Source: an uncultured Bacteroidales bacterium (lineage in GTDB: Bacteria; Bacteroidota; Bacteroidia; Bacteroidales; UBA932). From it: a stretch of DNA of 64,000 nt. Location: positions 1 through 64,000 of the forward strand of contig CAMKAJ010000005.1 in the NCBI GenBank assembly GCA_946410455.1, written 5' to 3'. Below the pieces are notes generated by a model, which worked only from the letters and a program-made list of their open reading frames with translations, did no database searches and had not been told where the DNA came from. A program made the position numbers and the translations under genes. Below, in pieces: positions 12,503 through 48,283 of the stretch (position 1 is its first letter; each line of letters begins with the position of its first letter).

Positions 12503-12930
12503 AAACAGATTTAGCCAAGATATTGTCCGTTTCCGGACAGCACGGTCTTTTCCTTTATCTGGCACAGGCCCGCAACGGCGTCATTGCCGAGACTCTGAAA
12601 GACAAGAAGCGCGTGCACTTTGACGCGCACAGCAAGATTTCTACTCTCAACGACATAGCCATCTTCACTTCCGAGGGTGAACTCCGTCTTGCAGAGGTGT
12701 TTACAGCCATGAAGGCTACCGCTGACGCCGGTACAGCAGTACCCAGCTCAAAGGATGCTGCAGATGCCATCAAGGCTTTCTTTGTAAAGGCAGTGCCCAA
12801 TTACGACGAGGATCGCTTCTATGTTTCCCACATGAAGAAGGTGCTTGAGTGGTACGGGGAGATTGAGCAGGGGGCTTCCTTTGATTTCCTGACAGACGAA
12901 GAGCGCGAAAAAGAGCTTGAAAAGGCTTAA
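12499..12930 (+). CDS. DUF5606 family protein
   Basis: MKTDLAKILSVSGQHGLFLYLAQARNGVIAETL. Confidence 0.75.
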   Translation: MKTDLAKILSVSGQHGLFLYLAQARNGVIAETLKDKKRVHFDAHSKISTLNDIAIFTSEGELRLAEVFTAMKATADAGTAVPSSKDAADAIKAFFVKAVPNYDEDRFYVSHMKKVLEWYGEIEQGASFDFLTDEEREKELEKA

Positions 12931-14296
12931 GGTAATAACGCTCGGCTGTTCCAAGAACAGCGTAGATACAGAGCATCTGCTGGCGGCCCTGCCGGCAGAT
13001 GAGTTTGAGTTTTGTGATGAGGGCCCCCTGGACTATCTGCTTTACAACACCTGCGGTTTCATTGGAGACGCAAAAGAGGAGAGTATCCAGGCTATTATCG
13101 AGGGTGTGGAGGCAAAGCGCAGGGGAGAAACCCGCGAGCTGCTTGTTTTTGGTTGTTTGAGCGAGCGTTACGCTACCCAGATGCCGGAACTTATCCCCGA
13201 GGTTGACGCCTGGTTCGGCGCCCGCGACTTAAACCCTATCCTGCGCTATCTTGGGGCTCCCGAATCGCGTTTTGTGCGCCGGCGGCAGGAGCAGCACAGG
13301 GGATACGCGTATCTCAAGATTTCTGAGGGCTGCGACAGGCGTTGCTCATATTGCGCCATCCCGTTTATACGTGGGGCGCATCGCTCTGTTCCTGTAGAAG
13401 ATTTGGTAGAAGAGGCAAGTCAGCTTGCATCGGAGGGTGTGAGCGAGCTTATCCTCATTGCCCAGGATACTACCTTTTACGGACTGGATTTGTACGGCAA
13501 GCGGTCGTTGGCCAGATTGCTCGAGGCTCTCTCAGGCGTTGAGGGGATTGAGCGTTTGAGAATCCATTATTCGTATCCAGCAGATTTTCCTGAAGACGTG
13601 CTTGAGCAGATGGCTTCTAACCCAAAGGTTTGCAAGTACTTGGATATTCCTCTACAGCATATTTCAGACGGTGTTCTGGACTGTATGCACCGGCATATAG
13701 ATGCTGCCGGCACTCGCCGTATAATTAGGCGTTTGCGGGAACAGGTTCCGGGGGTGGTGCTTCGAACCACGATGATAGTGGGGCACCCCGGAGAGGGGGA
13801 GAAGGAGTTTGGGGAATTGCTGGATTTTGTGCGCGAGGCTCGTTTTGAGCGGCTCGGCGCATTTACTTATTCTGAGGAGGAGGGGACCTGGGGAGCTACG
13901 CATCTAGAAGATTCCGTTCCGGAGGAGGAGAAGCGTCGCCGCCTGGATGAGTTGATGGGCCTGCAAGCTTCTATCTCTTTGGAATTCAATCGTTCACGTA
14001 TTGGCTCCGTGGTGCGGGTGATTGTTGATGATGTGGTGGGTAACAATTTTGTTTGCCGCAGCGAGTTCGAGAGTCCGGAGGTTGACGGCGAGATTTTGGT
14101 TCCTTGCAGCAGCCTTGAGGTAGTAGCCGGCAAAGACCATCCGGCTACGTCCGTCCTCGCTGATTCCGCTGTCACGGACAGCGGGCTGCGGCCGAGTAAC
14201 GCCGGACGGTTCTTTGCCGGCTCTTTTATCGGCCGCTACCTCACGGTTCGGATTACCGGGGCTGATGAATACGATCTTACGGCAGAAGTAGTCTAA
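12917..14296 (+). CDS. rimO: Ribosomal protein S12 methylthiotransferase (TTG start), with in-frame palindromic insertion near the C-terminus
   Basis: LGCSKNSVDTE, KISEGCDRRCSYCAIPFIRG radical-SAM motif, TRAM-like tail ITGADEYDL. Confidence 0.92.
   Translation: MKRLKVITLGCSKNSVDTEHLLAALPADEFEFCDEGPLDYLLYNTCGFIGDAKEESIQAIIEGVEAKRRGETRELLVFGCLSERYATQMPELIPEVDAWFGARDLNPILRYLGAPESRFVRRRQEQHRGYAYLKISEGCDRRCSYCAIPFIRGAHRSVPVEDLVEEASQLASEGVSELILIAQDTTFYGLDLYGKRSLARLLEALSGVEGIERLRIHYSYPADFPEDVLEQMASNPKVCKYLDIPLQHISDGVLDCMHRHIDAAGTRRIIRRLREQVPGVVLRTTMIVGHPGEGEKEFGELLDFVREARFERLGAFTYSEEEGTWGATHLEDSVPEEEKRRRLDELMGLQASISLEFNRSRIGSVVRVIVDDVVGNNFVCRSEFESPEVDGEILVPCSSLEVVAGKDHPATSVLADSAVTDSGLRPSNAGRFFAGSFIGRYLTVRITGADEYDLTAEVV
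14125..14222 (+). repeat. In-frame palindromic element, long variant (core 14141-14205) in rimO
   Basis: ccggctacgtcc...gagtaacgccgg termini as in murF; complementary outer arms agccggcaaaga-ccatccggc / gccggacggttctttgccggct; inner hairpin ccgctgtc-acg-gacagcgg. Confidence 0.85.
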
Positions 14297-14327: not shown

Positions 14328-14644
14328 AAGGTGGAACGATCTGCCGCGGCAGCGATGCTGAGGAAAGTCCGGACAGAGCAGGGCGCCCTGCTGTGGAAAG
14401 CACAGGTGGGGGTAACCTTACGCCAGCCGTAACAGAGAATAACCGCCATGGGGCTTGTCCCTGCGGCAAGGGTGAAAACGTGAGGCAAGAGCTCACGACG
14501 TTGCGCAGCGATGTGCGGCGGGTACGGCACCAGGGTCTGCAAGACCAAGTATACCGGCAGTTGAGGGCGGCCCGCCTGATGCCGGGGGGTAGGTTGCGAA
14601 GATAAATGGCAGAACCAACAGAAACCGGCTTACGGTTCCACCTT
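14328..14644 (+). ncRNA. rnpB: RNase P RNA (bacterial type A)
   Basis: gaggaaagtccggac (CR-I), cagaaaccggctta (CR-V), terminal pairing aaggtggaacg / cggttccacctt. Confidence 0.92.
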
Positions 14645-14671
14645 TTTATTGATTATTAACACGATAGCTAT

Positions 14672-27885: not shown

Positions 27886-29288
27886 AAGAATTATACGATT
27901 TGTATTGCAGCTGCGGCGGCCGGGTTACTACGGATAGCCGTGCAATCAGCGGCGGGGAGATGTTCTTCGCACTGCGTGGAGAGAACTTCGACGGTAATGA
28001 GTTTGCCGTCAAGGCTTTGGCGGACGGTGCGGTCTGGGCTGTCGTGAACGATGATGCCGATTTGCCTGCCGATGACCGCCTAATACGGGTAGAAGATCCG
28101 CTTACGACTTTGCGCGACCTTGCCGTTTGGCATCGTACGCATGTGCGTGGCGGCAAGTTGCCGGTTATCGGGCTTACGGGCACCAACGGCAAGACTACGA
28201 CCAAGAACCTGATAGAGGCGGTGCTGTCGCGCAAGTTCAAGGTAACTGCTACCAAGGGCAACCTGAACAACGATATCGGTGTGCCTCTGAGCTTGCTCTC
28301 CATTACTCCGGAGACAGAGATTGCGGTTATCGAGATGGGGGCAAACCATCCCGACGATATTGAGAAGCTTGTGCGGGTGTCGCAGCCCGACTACGGACTC
28401 ATTACCAATGTGGGCCGTGCGCATTTGCTTGGCTTCGGTTCCTTTGAGGGCGTGAAGCAGGCCAAGGGGGCGCTCTACCGTTGGCTGGGCTCGCGTCCTG
28501 GAAGCCTTGTCTTTATCAACGAAGACGATGCCGAGCTGCGCGGAATGGCCGCCGGCCTGCCGTGCCATTTCTTTGGCTACGGACTTGATTATCAGAAGGC
28601 CGAGCTGCTGCCTACGACTCCCGAGGCTCCTTTCCTGAGTCTGAAACTGCGTGATTGCGAGGTGCATACTCAGCTTGTAGGGTCTTATAATGCTGCCAAT
28701 GTGCTTGCGGCTTTGGCCGTCGGCGATTATTTTGGTGTTCCTCGTGCAGAGGCTGTTGCTGCGATTGAGGCTTTCGTTCCTGCCAACCAGCGTTCGCAGA
28801 TGGTTCGTACCGAGCGTAATACTCTGATTGTGGATGCTTACAACGCAAACCCTTCGTCGATGAGGGCTGCGCTGGAGAATTTTGCTGCACTTCAGGCGCC
28901 TTGCAAGCTTGCTTTGCTGGGTGATATGCGCGAACTTGGTGCAGAGTCGGTGGCCGAGCATGCGAAGGTGGTGGAGCAGCTGCGCGCTGCCGGCATCCCT
29001 GCCATCCTGGTGGGGGAGGAGTTCGCCAAGGCGCTCGAAGCTTCTGGCAGCGCGGCGCTCGGGCAGCAAGCCTCACCGGCTACGTCCATTCTCGCTTCGC
29101 TCCGCTCGCTGCGGCTGAGTAACGCCGGAGAGGCTTCTGCCACTCGCTCTACGCCACTGCCAGGCGGCTGCTTCCCGGATTCGGCGACACTCGCTGCCTG
29201 GCTCCACGACAACCCCGTCAGCGGCTGCGCCATCCTCGTCAAGGGTTCCCGGGGCATCCAGATGGAAAAAGTCCTCCCGGAACTATAA
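27882..29288 (+). CDS. murF: UDP-MurNAc-tripeptide--D-Ala-D-Ala ligase with C-terminal in-frame palindromic insertion
   Basis: [33 protein letters not shown]-terminal [15 protein letters not shown]. Confidence 0.93.
29062..29141 (+). repeat. In-frame palindromic element (core 29076-29128) in murF
   Basis: Core ccggctacgtccattctcgcttcgctccgctcgctgcggctgagtaacgccgg, identical as reverse complement to 47864-47916; arms ggcagcaagcctca / agaggcttctgcc complementary. Confidence 0.92.
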
Positions 29289-39794: not shown

Positions 39795-40532
39795 CTAGCG
39801 CAGAAGGGTACTGCAGATTCTCTCGGCCTCCGGAAGGCTGTCGAACTTGCCCACATCTACAAGGCTAAGATCCTTGCAAACAACACCATAGATATTATAC
39901 CTCAAGCACGCCTTGAGGTATAATTCTATTATAGAGAAGCGTTCCGGGCAGTCGAACTCATCAAAGACTCCAAAGATCTCCGGCGACATAATATGTATGC
40001 CGCCAAAGGCGTATTTGCGACATTCTTCAACGCAAAGCTCAGGATATGGGCTGATGGTCTCGCCGCTTGCAAGATTGGTCCAGCCGCACAGGCGCATGTC
40101 GTCGTCGAAGAGCAGGTAGCGCTGGGTGCTGCGCTCGCTAACCAGAAGCGTTGAGAGCGCTCCCGGCCGAACAAGTGAGCGGAACCATTCCAGGTCCAGG
40201 TTGGAAATAATATCAACGTTGTGCACCAGAAACGGCTCTCCCTCAAGAAAAGGGCGGGCATGCTTGATGCCGCCTCCGGTCTCGAGAAGCTGTGCGCTCT
40301 CGTCGGAAATATGAATGTCGGCGCCAAAGTCGTGAGAAGCCAGATAATCTTTTATCTGCTCAGCAAAGTGGTGTACATTTACCGTAATGTCGTCGTATCC
40401 GGCAGCGCAGAGCTTACTCAGCACATGATAAATCAGTGGCTGCCCGTACACCGGAACAAGCGCCTTTGGCATAGTGTCGGTGAGCGGTTTGAGCCTTGTG
40501 CCAAGCCCGGCGGCGAATACCATTGCCTTCAT
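39795..40532 (-). CDS. Sugar-1-phosphate nucleotidyltransferase, MurU-like
   Basis: MKAMVFAAGLGTRLKPLTDTMPKALVPVYGQPLIYHVL. Confidence 0.85.
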   Translation of the reverse strand: MKAMVFAAGLGTRLKPLTDTMPKALVPVYGQPLIYHVLSKLCAAGYDDITVNVHHFAEQIKDYLASHDFGADIHISDESAQLLETGGGIKHARPFLEGEPFLVHNVDIISNLDLEWFRSLVRPGALSTLLVSERSTQRYLLFDDDMRLCGWTNLASGETISPYPELCVEECRKYAFGGIHIMSPEIFGVFDEFDCPERFSIIELYLKACLRYNIYGVVCKDLSLVDVGKFDSLPEAERICSTLLR

Positions 40533-45501: not shown

Positions 45502-46931
45502 TGGATGCTGGCAGGCTTTACAAGGGTTTCCTTACGGCCATGGCGTACGAGCCGACGGCCTGTCAGGATTCGTTGTTCCGCAGTCTCGCGGAGTTCTTTA
45601 CAACAGACGAGGGCGATATTTTCGTGATTAACGGCTACGCCGGCACAGGCAAGACAACTGCTCTGTCGGCAGTCATCAACGCCCTCAAGCGAATTGGCAT
45701 CCCTTCCGTCCTGCTTGCTCCCACCGGCCGCGCCGCCAAGGTGCTGTCTTATGTTTCCGGGAGACCGGCATTCACCGTACACAAGCATATTTATCGTCAG
45801 AAATCTGTGGGAAGCGATGGCTGGGGCCGTTTTTCGTTATCTCCCAACAAGTCCAAGAACACTCTTTTCGTTGTGGACGAGGCGTCGCTGATTGGGGTTG
45901 ATACCCAGAACCAGCAGGCGCAGTCTGTCTTTGGCTCCGGAGACCTGCTGCACGATCTTGTGGAGTTTGTGCGTTCCGGTAACGGCTGCCGCCTGATACT
46001 GATGGGCGACTCTGCACAGCTGCCTCCTGTGGGGAATATTGAATCTCCTGCACTGAGCCAGGCTTATCTTGAGCAGTTCGGGGGAGTGCATTATGCTGTG
46101 CTGTCTGAGGTGGTAAGGCAGGCTCGCGAGTCGATGATACTTTCTGACGCAACACTAATTCGCAAGATGATAGAAACCGCATCTCCGGATGAGGTTTTTG
46201 ATGCTCTCTGCCTGCAGGCCGGGGCAGATTGCGAGGTGCAGAGAATCGGCGGGGGAGAGTTGTTGGAGGCTCTTGGCGATGCGTACGGCCGTTATGGCTC
46301 AGACGATACTGTGGTGCTCTGCCGCTCCAACAAGAGGGCGATACGTTACAATCTTGGGATTCGCGCGCAGGTGCTCTTCAAGGAGGAGGAACTCTCCAGG
46401 GGCGACCGATTTATGATAGTGAAGAACTGCTACCAGTTTGTGGAAGATGTTGATTCTATGGATTATATTGCCAACGGCGATGTTGCGCAGTTGCAAAAAA
46501 TCTGGAATTACGAAGACCGCTATGGACTGCGCTTTGCCGACGCACTGTTGCGCTTCCCCGATTACGATGATGCCGAAATCCGCGCCAAGGTGTGTCTGGA
46601 TACTCTTACGTCCGAATCTGCGTCGCTTACTTATGAGCAGCAGAATGCTTTGTACGCCGGGGTGAGTGCCGATTATGCAGAACTGGGAACAAAGAAGAAG
46701 ATTTGGGAGGCGGTGCGTGAGGATCCGTATTTTAATGCGCTGCAGCTTAAGTATGCCGATGCTATTACCTGCCACAAGGCGCAGGGTGGGCAGTGGAGCT
46801 GCGTTTTTATTGATTTCCCATTCTGGGAGGGGCATCTTAACGTGGAGGATCTGAAGTGGCTGTATACTGCCATGTCGAGGGCGGTGGAGAAGCTGTATCT
46901 GGTGAATTTTAAGGATTGGCTTTTTGCATGA
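45501..46931 (+). CDS. RecD-like ATP-dependent helicase/exonuclease
   Basis: GYAGTGKTTALSAVINAL, LLAPTGRAAKVLS, VVDEASLIG, C-terminal CHKAQGGQW...LYTAMSRAVEKLYLV. Confidence 0.88.
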   Translation: MDAGRLYKGFLTAMAYEPTACQDSLFRSLAEFFTTDEGDIFVINGYAGTGKTTALSAVINALKRIGIPSVLLAPTGRAAKVLSYVSGRPAFTVHKHIYRQKSVGSDGWGRFSLSPNKSKNTLFVVDEASLIGVDTQNQQAQSVFGSGDLLHDLVEFVRSGNGCRLILMGDSAQLPPVGNIESPALSQAYLEQFGGVHYAVLSEVVRQARESMILSDATLIRKMIETASPDEVFDALCLQAGADCEVQRIGGGELLEALGDAYGRYGSDDTVVLCRSNKRAIRYNLGIRAQVLFKEEELSRGDRFMIVKNCYQFVEDVDSMDYIANGDVAQLQKIWNYEDRYGLRFADALLRFPDYDDAEIRAKVCLDTLTSESASLTYEQQNALYAGVSADYAELGTKKKIWEAVREDPYFNALQLKYADAITCHKAQGGQWSCVFIDFPFWEGHLNVEDLKWLYTAMSRAVEKLYLVNFKDWLFA

Positions 46932-48283
46932 GTTTTGCCGATATTCTTCAGAAGCTTGAGAGCGATTCGGCGTCCCGGCTTGCGGCTAAGTTGCCGTCTT
47001 GGGCGGGGCTTCCTGTTGAAGTGCCTGCGGCTATTAATTTGCAGCAGTGTTCGGGGGAGAGTGCGGCGCGCTACAAGGCTTCGCTGATTCCGGAGGGCTC
47101 TCGCGTGACCGATCTTACCGGCGGGTTGGGAGTTGACTCCTGGGCGTTTAGCCGGCGTGCTTCTGCTGTGTGGTATAATGAGAGGGATGTTGTGCTGCGT
47201 GATGCAGTGAGACGGAATTTTGTGGCGCTGGGTGTTTCTGGTGTGGAGTTTAATTCTTTTGATATCAGTCCGGCGTCTGATGATTGGCTGGCTGCTTTGC
47301 GGGAGTTCGGGCCGGTTGTTATTTATCTTGATCCGGCGCGGCGGGATGCTGCGGGGCGTAAGGTTTTCCTGCTTGAGGATTGTAGTCCGGATGTTGTGGC
47401 TTTGATGCCGCTGCTGCTGGATATTGCGCCGCTTGTTATGGTTAAGGTGTCGCCTATGGCGGATCTTACTATGTTGCAGCGGCGGCTTGCTCCGTATCTT
47501 TCTGAGATTCACGTTGTAGGCTCTGACGGCGAGTGTAAAGAGATTCTCTGCCTCCTGTACGCTTCCGGCTCCTCTCCGCTGGAGTCGCCTCCGAAGGACT
47601 TCGCTTCGCTCATCCCTCCCACAGATGTCCATTGTTCGTCAGTGAGCGAGCTCACTTCCTCCAATCGTCCATCTGCGGGCCCCTCCCGTTCACGCGGCCA
47701 CGGGCGGCCACGGTCCTCGGAGGCGACTCCAGCCTTCGCTTCGCCGGAAACAAGTTCAGAGAGTGGAGTGATTATCCGCCTCGCAGAAGATGGAATAGTC
47801 TTTGACTCTAAAAGAATCGGCTTGGTGGAGTCGGATGATAAAGCGGGAGACGGGGATGAGGGGCCGGCGTTACTCAGCCGCAGCGAGCGGAGCGAAGCGA
47901 GAATGGACGTAGCCGGGCCCTCAGTCCCCGCGAAAGCATCATCCGACGGAGTGGAGACGGAAGGAGGGGAGAGGTTGCTGTTTGTGCCGTCGGCGGCGAT
48001 GGTGAAGGCGGGACTGGGGCCGGGATTGTGCAGGATGGGCTACGACGAGCATCTGAGCCACTTTGGGAAGTTCTACAGAGTACTCGAAGAACATCCGTTC
48101 TCATCGTCCGTCATAAAGGAACTGAACCGCCGCTACCCGCAGGCGGAAGTAACGGCAAAGGGATTGCCGCTGAGCTCGGAGGATCTGCGCACCAAAATGA
48201 AAATCAAGCCCGGCGGCCCAATACACATATTCGCCTGCATCCTGGAAGGGGAGAGGCGAATACTAATCTGCAAAAAATACTAA
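46928..48283 (+). CDS. Class I SAM-dependent methyltransferase (THUMP-like C-terminus) carrying two in-frame palindromic insertions
   Basis: VTDLTGGLGVDSWAFSRRA SAM motif, VIYLDPARRD, C-terminal AKGLPLSSEDLRTKMKIKPGGPIHIFACIL. Confidence 0.82.
   Translation: MSFADILQKLESDSASRLAAKLPSWAGLPVEVPAAINLQQCSGESAARYKASLIPEGSRVTDLTGGLGVDSWAFSRRASAVWYNERDVVLRDAVRRNFVALGVSGVEFNSFDISPASDDWLAALREFGPVVIYLDPARRDAAGRKVFLLEDCSPDVVALMPLLLDIAPLVMVKVSPMADLTMLQRRLAPYLSEIHVVGSDGECKEILCLLYASGSSPLESPPKDFASLIPPTDVHCSSVSELTSSNRPSAGPSRSRGHGRPRSSEATPAFASPETSSESGVIIRLAEDGIVFDSKRIGLVESDDKAGDGDEGPALLSRSERSEARMDVAGPSVPAKASSDGVETEGGERLLFVPSAAMVKAGLGPGLCRMGYDEHLSHFGKFYRVLEEHPFSSSVIKELNRRYPQAEVTAKGLPLSSEDLRTKMKIKPGGPIHIFACILEGERRILICKKY
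47581..47730. repeat. Large nested palindromic insertion inside the methyltransferase gene
   Basis: Perfect outer 14-bp IR ggagtcgcctccga / tcggaggcgactcc; nested cagatg..attg / caat..catctg and gtgag-cgag-ctcac. Confidence 0.8.
47851..47930 (-). repeat. In-frame palindromic element (core 47864-47916) in methyltransferase gene, opposite orientation to murF copy
   Basis: 53/53 identity to reverse complement of 29076-29128; arms cggggatgagggg / ggccctcagtccccg complementary. Confidence 0.92.

Follow-up and report, generated by a model that had tools for sequence, protein, structure and literature searches.

The window analysed here, a stretch of 64,000 nucleotides from an uncultured Bacteroidales bacterium (contig CAMKAJ010000005.1), carries in its rimO gene a palindromic insert that is probably one copy of a selfish insertion element of about 85-135 bp, similar to the Rickettsia palindromic elements (RPE) and surviving in permissive loops of proteins. 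The element is dispersed within and between the genomes of one Bacteroidales genus, where it lies in frame in conserved genes and in either orientation; its core is conserved, and its arms differ between copies yet stay complementary to each other.

The host gene (12917-14296, + strand) encodes a protein matching the RimO family far above the cut-off, and its frame stays open across the insert. The whole imperfect palindrome, arms and core together, spans about 98 bp (14125-14222, + strand). The copy-specific left arm (14125-14140, + strand) and right arm (14206-14222, + strand) are complementary and pair in the fold, the own right arm being the best partner of the left arm among the 13 right arms of the genome. 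Between them lies a conserved core of 65 bp (14141-14205, + strand), whose ends are about 91% identical among the copies in the genome and whose two end motifs, at 14141-14161 and 14186-14205, are present with zero mismatch. The variable apex of the core, read directly from the letters, is the perfect hairpin CCGCTGTC-ACG-GACAGCGG (14166-14184, + strand). A sequence-only reading of this DNA had described this hairpin, the end motifs shared with a copy in murF and a core 12 bp longer than the murF one, and all three are borne out (65 versus 53 bp). Each end motif occurs three times and no more in the window, where 0.05-0.11 occurrences would be expected by chance, and none of 100 shuffled sequences reached three. 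Folding of the segment 14112-14244 gave -71 kcal/mol as RNA (z = -6.9) and -38.6 as DNA (z = -6.0), each value beating all 200 shuffled controls.

Comparison with relatives delimits the insert. At the insert site the closest relative of the window's RimO is that of G011, which is 33 codons shorter. The insert peptide, whose presence in orthologs of distant taxa had been named as a refutation of the proposed family, was found in none of 29 further genomes of the genus whose RimO was aligned over the site. Thus, the span 14125-14222 proposed by the sequence-only reading lies close to the true insert. Among more distant proteins one solved RimO structure was compared, and its match stops before the insert site. 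A search for a plasmid source of the rimO stretch found no match.

The proposal that the rimO copy belongs to a repeat family, for which a genome-wide search had been set beforehand as the refuting test, stood up well: a pattern search allowing up to two mismatches found 13 copies on 10 contigs of the 2.13-Mb genome, the window accounting for three, and the reversed control pattern gave 0 matches in the same genome. A covariance model built from 24 copies matched the rimO copy at 14129-14217 (86 bits), and scoring of the window with the filters off gave three strong matches and nothing else convincing. The second copy (29064-29140, core 29076-29128 of 53 bp, + strand; 79 bits) lies in a gene with a MurF family match. 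The third (47852-47928, core 47864-47916 of 53 bp, - strand; 83 bits) lies in an open reading frame of about 456 codons (46916-48283, + strand), which remains open through the element and whose product has no NCBIfam match. Open frames hold 12 of the 13 copies in the genome, the remaining one (L009) being intergenic. A family scan covering 10 of the 12 host proteins, all but those of L001 and L011, matched DnaG, dihydropteroate synthase (folP), RimO, TsaB, DnaX and MurF; the match for IspE fell just under the cut-off. The host protein of L012 is NapH-like, that of L010 resembles rRNA methyltransferases, that of L004 gave no match in the scan, and that of L011 looks like HemW by eye.

A common reading frame and a constraint on it had been proposed as well, and both are supported in this genome. 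The codon phase at the left end is equal in all three copies of the window, which are read as PATS... in rimO and murF and as PALLSRS... (reverse strand) in the third gene. The apical segment is the source of the length differences among cores, and all 13 core lengths (50, 53, 62, 65 and 71 bp) equal 2 modulo 3, with 12 of these copies in open frames. Five intergenic or doubtful core-A copies have cores of 65, 50, 50, 45 and 64 bp, three of which equal 2 modulo 3; cores of 45 bp inside open frames also occur in a few genic copies of relatives.

The covariance model was positive in 11 of 101 genomes of the genus. A core subtype with GGCTACGTCC occurs in G000, G027, G072 and G095, another with GGCCGCGTCC or close variants in G017, G066, G114, G073, G096 and G033, and G068 has one divergent model match. 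Named genomes were scanned with the pattern as well, and all the matches listed came from Bacteroidales or Bacteroidia records, the majority bearing titles of rumen or ruminant-stomach assemblies. Of 162 distinct copies 134 (83%) fall in frames of at least 200 codons; for random positions of equal size the share is 91%, so the element scarcely avoids genes. Such a share is by itself no proof of translation, for which better evidence comes from the named genes, where homology extends to either side of the insert. The murF site is empty in G072, G071, G023, G011 and G004, and the methyltransferase site is empty in G023, no arms being present at either. The empty sites are variable and no target-site duplication was definable from them. 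Two copies lie close together in L022 (G027, at a contig end; starts 81 bp apart) and in L077 (G095; starts 210 bp apart).

The arms and the core of the element evolve very differently, identity among the 13 copies of the genome being 38-42% in the arms and 91% in the core ends. Despite this divergence, the own right arm is the best partner for 11 of the 13 left arms. The conserved ends and variable centre of the sequence-only reading must be amended in this respect: the core is indeed conserved and its apical segment does vary, but the supposed ends are the inner part of a longer hairpin with variable, complementary outer arms, by which the unit measures 85-135 bp in the other copies. Over 86 distinct copies 88.6% of the cells are paired, and double-changed cells number 265 versus 76 ± 7 in shuffled controls. 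The covariation score is 0.377 versus 0.115 shuffled, none of 500 shuffles being as high, and it falls to about 0.10 or less when the partners are slid by 1-3 columns; kinship among the 86 copies inflates these counts to some degree.

Palindromic inserts of other families are found in the same genus. In truB of many of its species, inserts with other cores and matched arms lie in frame at or near the same place; unrelated cores were seen in the loop inserts of L194, L197, L199, L207, L210, L211 and L204, and several inserts (e.g. L194, L197, L207 and L211) have perfect arms of 22-26 bases. Several truB stretches showed no repeat above shuffled controls. The sequence TGTCATTTCGAGCG...GAGTCGAGAAATCT, which resembles a CGTC-type repetitive extragenic palindrome (REP), lies inside the truB inserts of L196, L206 and L209. 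At the methyltransferase site G000 and G027 have the element, and G004, G011, G071 and G072 have other sequence, with long matched arms in the inserts of G011 and G071. In murF of G027 (L250) a different in-frame insert with GCCCTGAGCTCGTCGAAGGGC occupies the place where G000 has the element.

Copies at the same site in different species were grouped by comparing the proteins flanking each copy, and the intergenic site and the methyltransferase site of L010 and L088 were added by reading the DNA. The tandem copies L022/L086 and L077/L085 were left out, as was L007 with L092, which share a short match only. Sixteen groups resulted, and in nine of them the unit is reversed in at least one species. 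The clearest case of inversion is the intergenic site, where G000, G027 and G072 share orthologous neighbouring genes (one of these genes 97% identical) and the element has one orientation in G000 and G072 and the opposite one in G027; core and inner arms are nearly identical between G027 and G072 despite the opposite orientation. At the paired arm positions of 12 same-site pairs we counted compensatory changes on both sides in 32 cases and changes on one side in 36; pairing survives 12 of these single changes and is broken by 24, of which 10 come from one pair with a register slip (14 without that pair). The frequency of reversal alone is indecisive, because independent insertions in random orientation would also give about one half. 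Furthermore, the copies at one site might have arrived separately at an insertion hot spot, since unrelated families occupy the same sites in truB and in the methyltransferase gene.

From these data a course of events may be proposed in which copies land widely and the survivors are those that keep the frame in tolerant loops. Each host protein would thereby acquire an added linker, about 30-35 residues long in the measured cases. When the DNA is replicated, template switching at the hairpin would then probably copy one arm onto the other and sometimes invert the unit, and the arms would stay matched because one is rewritten from the other. In yeast genes template switching is reported to homogenise the arms of inverted repeats and to invert their spacers (PMC8604942), and in RNA genes it is reported to maintain stems (PMC8794818). 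Concerted arm change and inversion are both seen in the rimO family, as in yeast, although the yeast arms measure 7-16 bp, the inverted spacers 2-5 bp and no mobile core is involved (PMC8604942); the spacers of at least 43 bp found here are a real weakness of the comparison, and hence of template switching as the explanation. We regard it as possible, with the balance somewhat against it, that the stem stays paired without selection through such rewriting: the arms would diverge freely around a retained core, the unit would turn over at its site, and the unrelated families of the genus would act in the same way and return to the same permissive loops. If this is true, a given site furnishes the host protein with either of two linker peptides.

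The chief alternative to template switching is selection on structure, as covariation would also follow from selection on folded RNA or DNA. The element would in that case be a functional structured RNA or a protein-binding site in the mRNA, and its compensatory changes the mark of selection on the fold, as the strong covariation, the conserved unpaired positions and the very stable fold could suggest. However, the element sits in unrelated genes, in both orientations and in several frames, and an inversion at the same site between species would turn such an RNA into its complement. In ten loci nothing in Rfam matched the element, and most genomes of the genus are without it. Same-site reversal and the unrelated host genes thus speak against a functional RNA, which we consider improbable.

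It is also unlikely that a core cassette of 50-70 bp inserts into pre-existing palindromes or swaps between them. The conserved core with its copy-specific arms fits such a cassette, as do the unrelated cores found at one site in different species and the report of some REP dimers within longer palindromes (PMC3733652). Nevertheless, the orthologous sites in rimO (29 genomes) and murF are cleanly empty, with no arms present, and recognisable arm types (GCCGGACAGCCGCTCGAGCC or close variants) recur in several different genes of G017, G066, G073 and G114, which indicates that the arms travel with the core. The same recurrence and the same empty sites speak against a copying of the arms from the target gene.

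Mobilisation of the element, as a repeat of the REP type, by a RAYT (Y1) transposase seems to us quite improbable, even though the element forms a hairpin and has CGTC in its core, inside the hairpin. Y1_Tnp genes are present in 78 of 101 genomes of the genus, including all 11 carriers; because 67 of the 90 non-carriers have them too, this overlap carries little weight. The core motif was absent near Y1_Tnp in 13 regions from carrier genomes, bar one weak partial match (L384), so that in these regions the element is not seen to flank a RAYT gene as a REP does. Eight of the 13 regions showed no strong inverted repeat at the scan threshold. In L378 (1163-2300) and L384 (653-1880) a Y1_Tnp gene lies between two matching hairpins (GAAAAACGTGTAGC..GCTACACGTTTTTC and CAGAAAACGCATAGAC.., respectively), which differ from the rimO element. 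Near Y1_Tnp of L376 and L387 there is a single strong hairpin, and L385 has a long one downstream. Involvement of RAYT in the spread of the element is therefore unsupported, and no mobilising enzyme was found for it.

An assembly artefact or chance palindromes can be dismissed as hardly credible, for although all genomes compared are draft assemblies, many of them from metagenomes, the same inserts with intact frames occur in many independent assemblies and the motifs would be expected by chance only 0.05-0.11 times per window.

Among known systems the RPE (Ogata 2000, 2002) are nearest in behaviour to the selfish element proposed here, a likeness drawn from their published description. They are palindromic repeats of about 100-150 bp, found in frame in unrelated genes, with several families and with orthologs carrying inserts at the same locus (PMC10969869, PMC3767692), and RPE-1 has been reported in truB of R. 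conorii (PMC3733652). The rimO unit is likewise palindromic (about 98 bp, and 85-135 bp in other copies), and its family lies in frame in protein-coding genes in 12 of 13 copies. The Bacteroidales element differs in coming from another phylum. Furthermore, Rickettsia elements are said to lose the identity of their arms over time (PMC6649704), whereas the arms described here remain complementary through an almost complete turnover, and the unit is found reversed at its site.

Other systems may be compared too. REPs measure 20-40 bp, are mostly intergenic and have a tag unpaired at one end (PMC3733652), whereas the element measures 85-135 bp, is mostly genic and has its CGTC inside the hairpin, so that neither size nor tag agrees. 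GTAG- and CGTC-tagged REPs have nonetheless been reported inside open reading frames in several phyla, the CGTC type also from Bacteroidetes, with truB among the targets (PMC3733652). A classical MITE has terminal inverted repeats shared with an insertion sequence and a target duplication; in the present element the arms differ between copies. The coding palindromes of Nematomorpha mitochondrial genes resemble the present element in that they are inverted repeats within coding DNA and keep their arms matched as their letters change. They overlie conserved protein regions with no added insert (PMC6649704), and a shared dispersed core is not described in the part of the article consulted.

In-frame palindromic inserts are best known from Rickettsia, with scattered intragenic REPs elsewhere, and we found no earlier report of them in Bacteroidales in the open-licence literature searched. 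Here they lie in housekeeping genes of a large genus of gut bacteria, in several unrelated families that share sites. They offer many natural replicates for testing the spread of the element, the tolerance of loops and the covariation of stems from mutation alone versus selection on RNA structure.

Two further features of the window may be mentioned. A simple scan for inverted repeats, which misses bulged arms, gave only one above its threshold in the window, a perfect 13-bp repeat (ATTATACCTCAAG..CTTGAGGTATAAT) at 39894-39924. Just downstream of rimO lies the RNase P RNA gene (14328-14648; Rfam RF00010, 188 bits).
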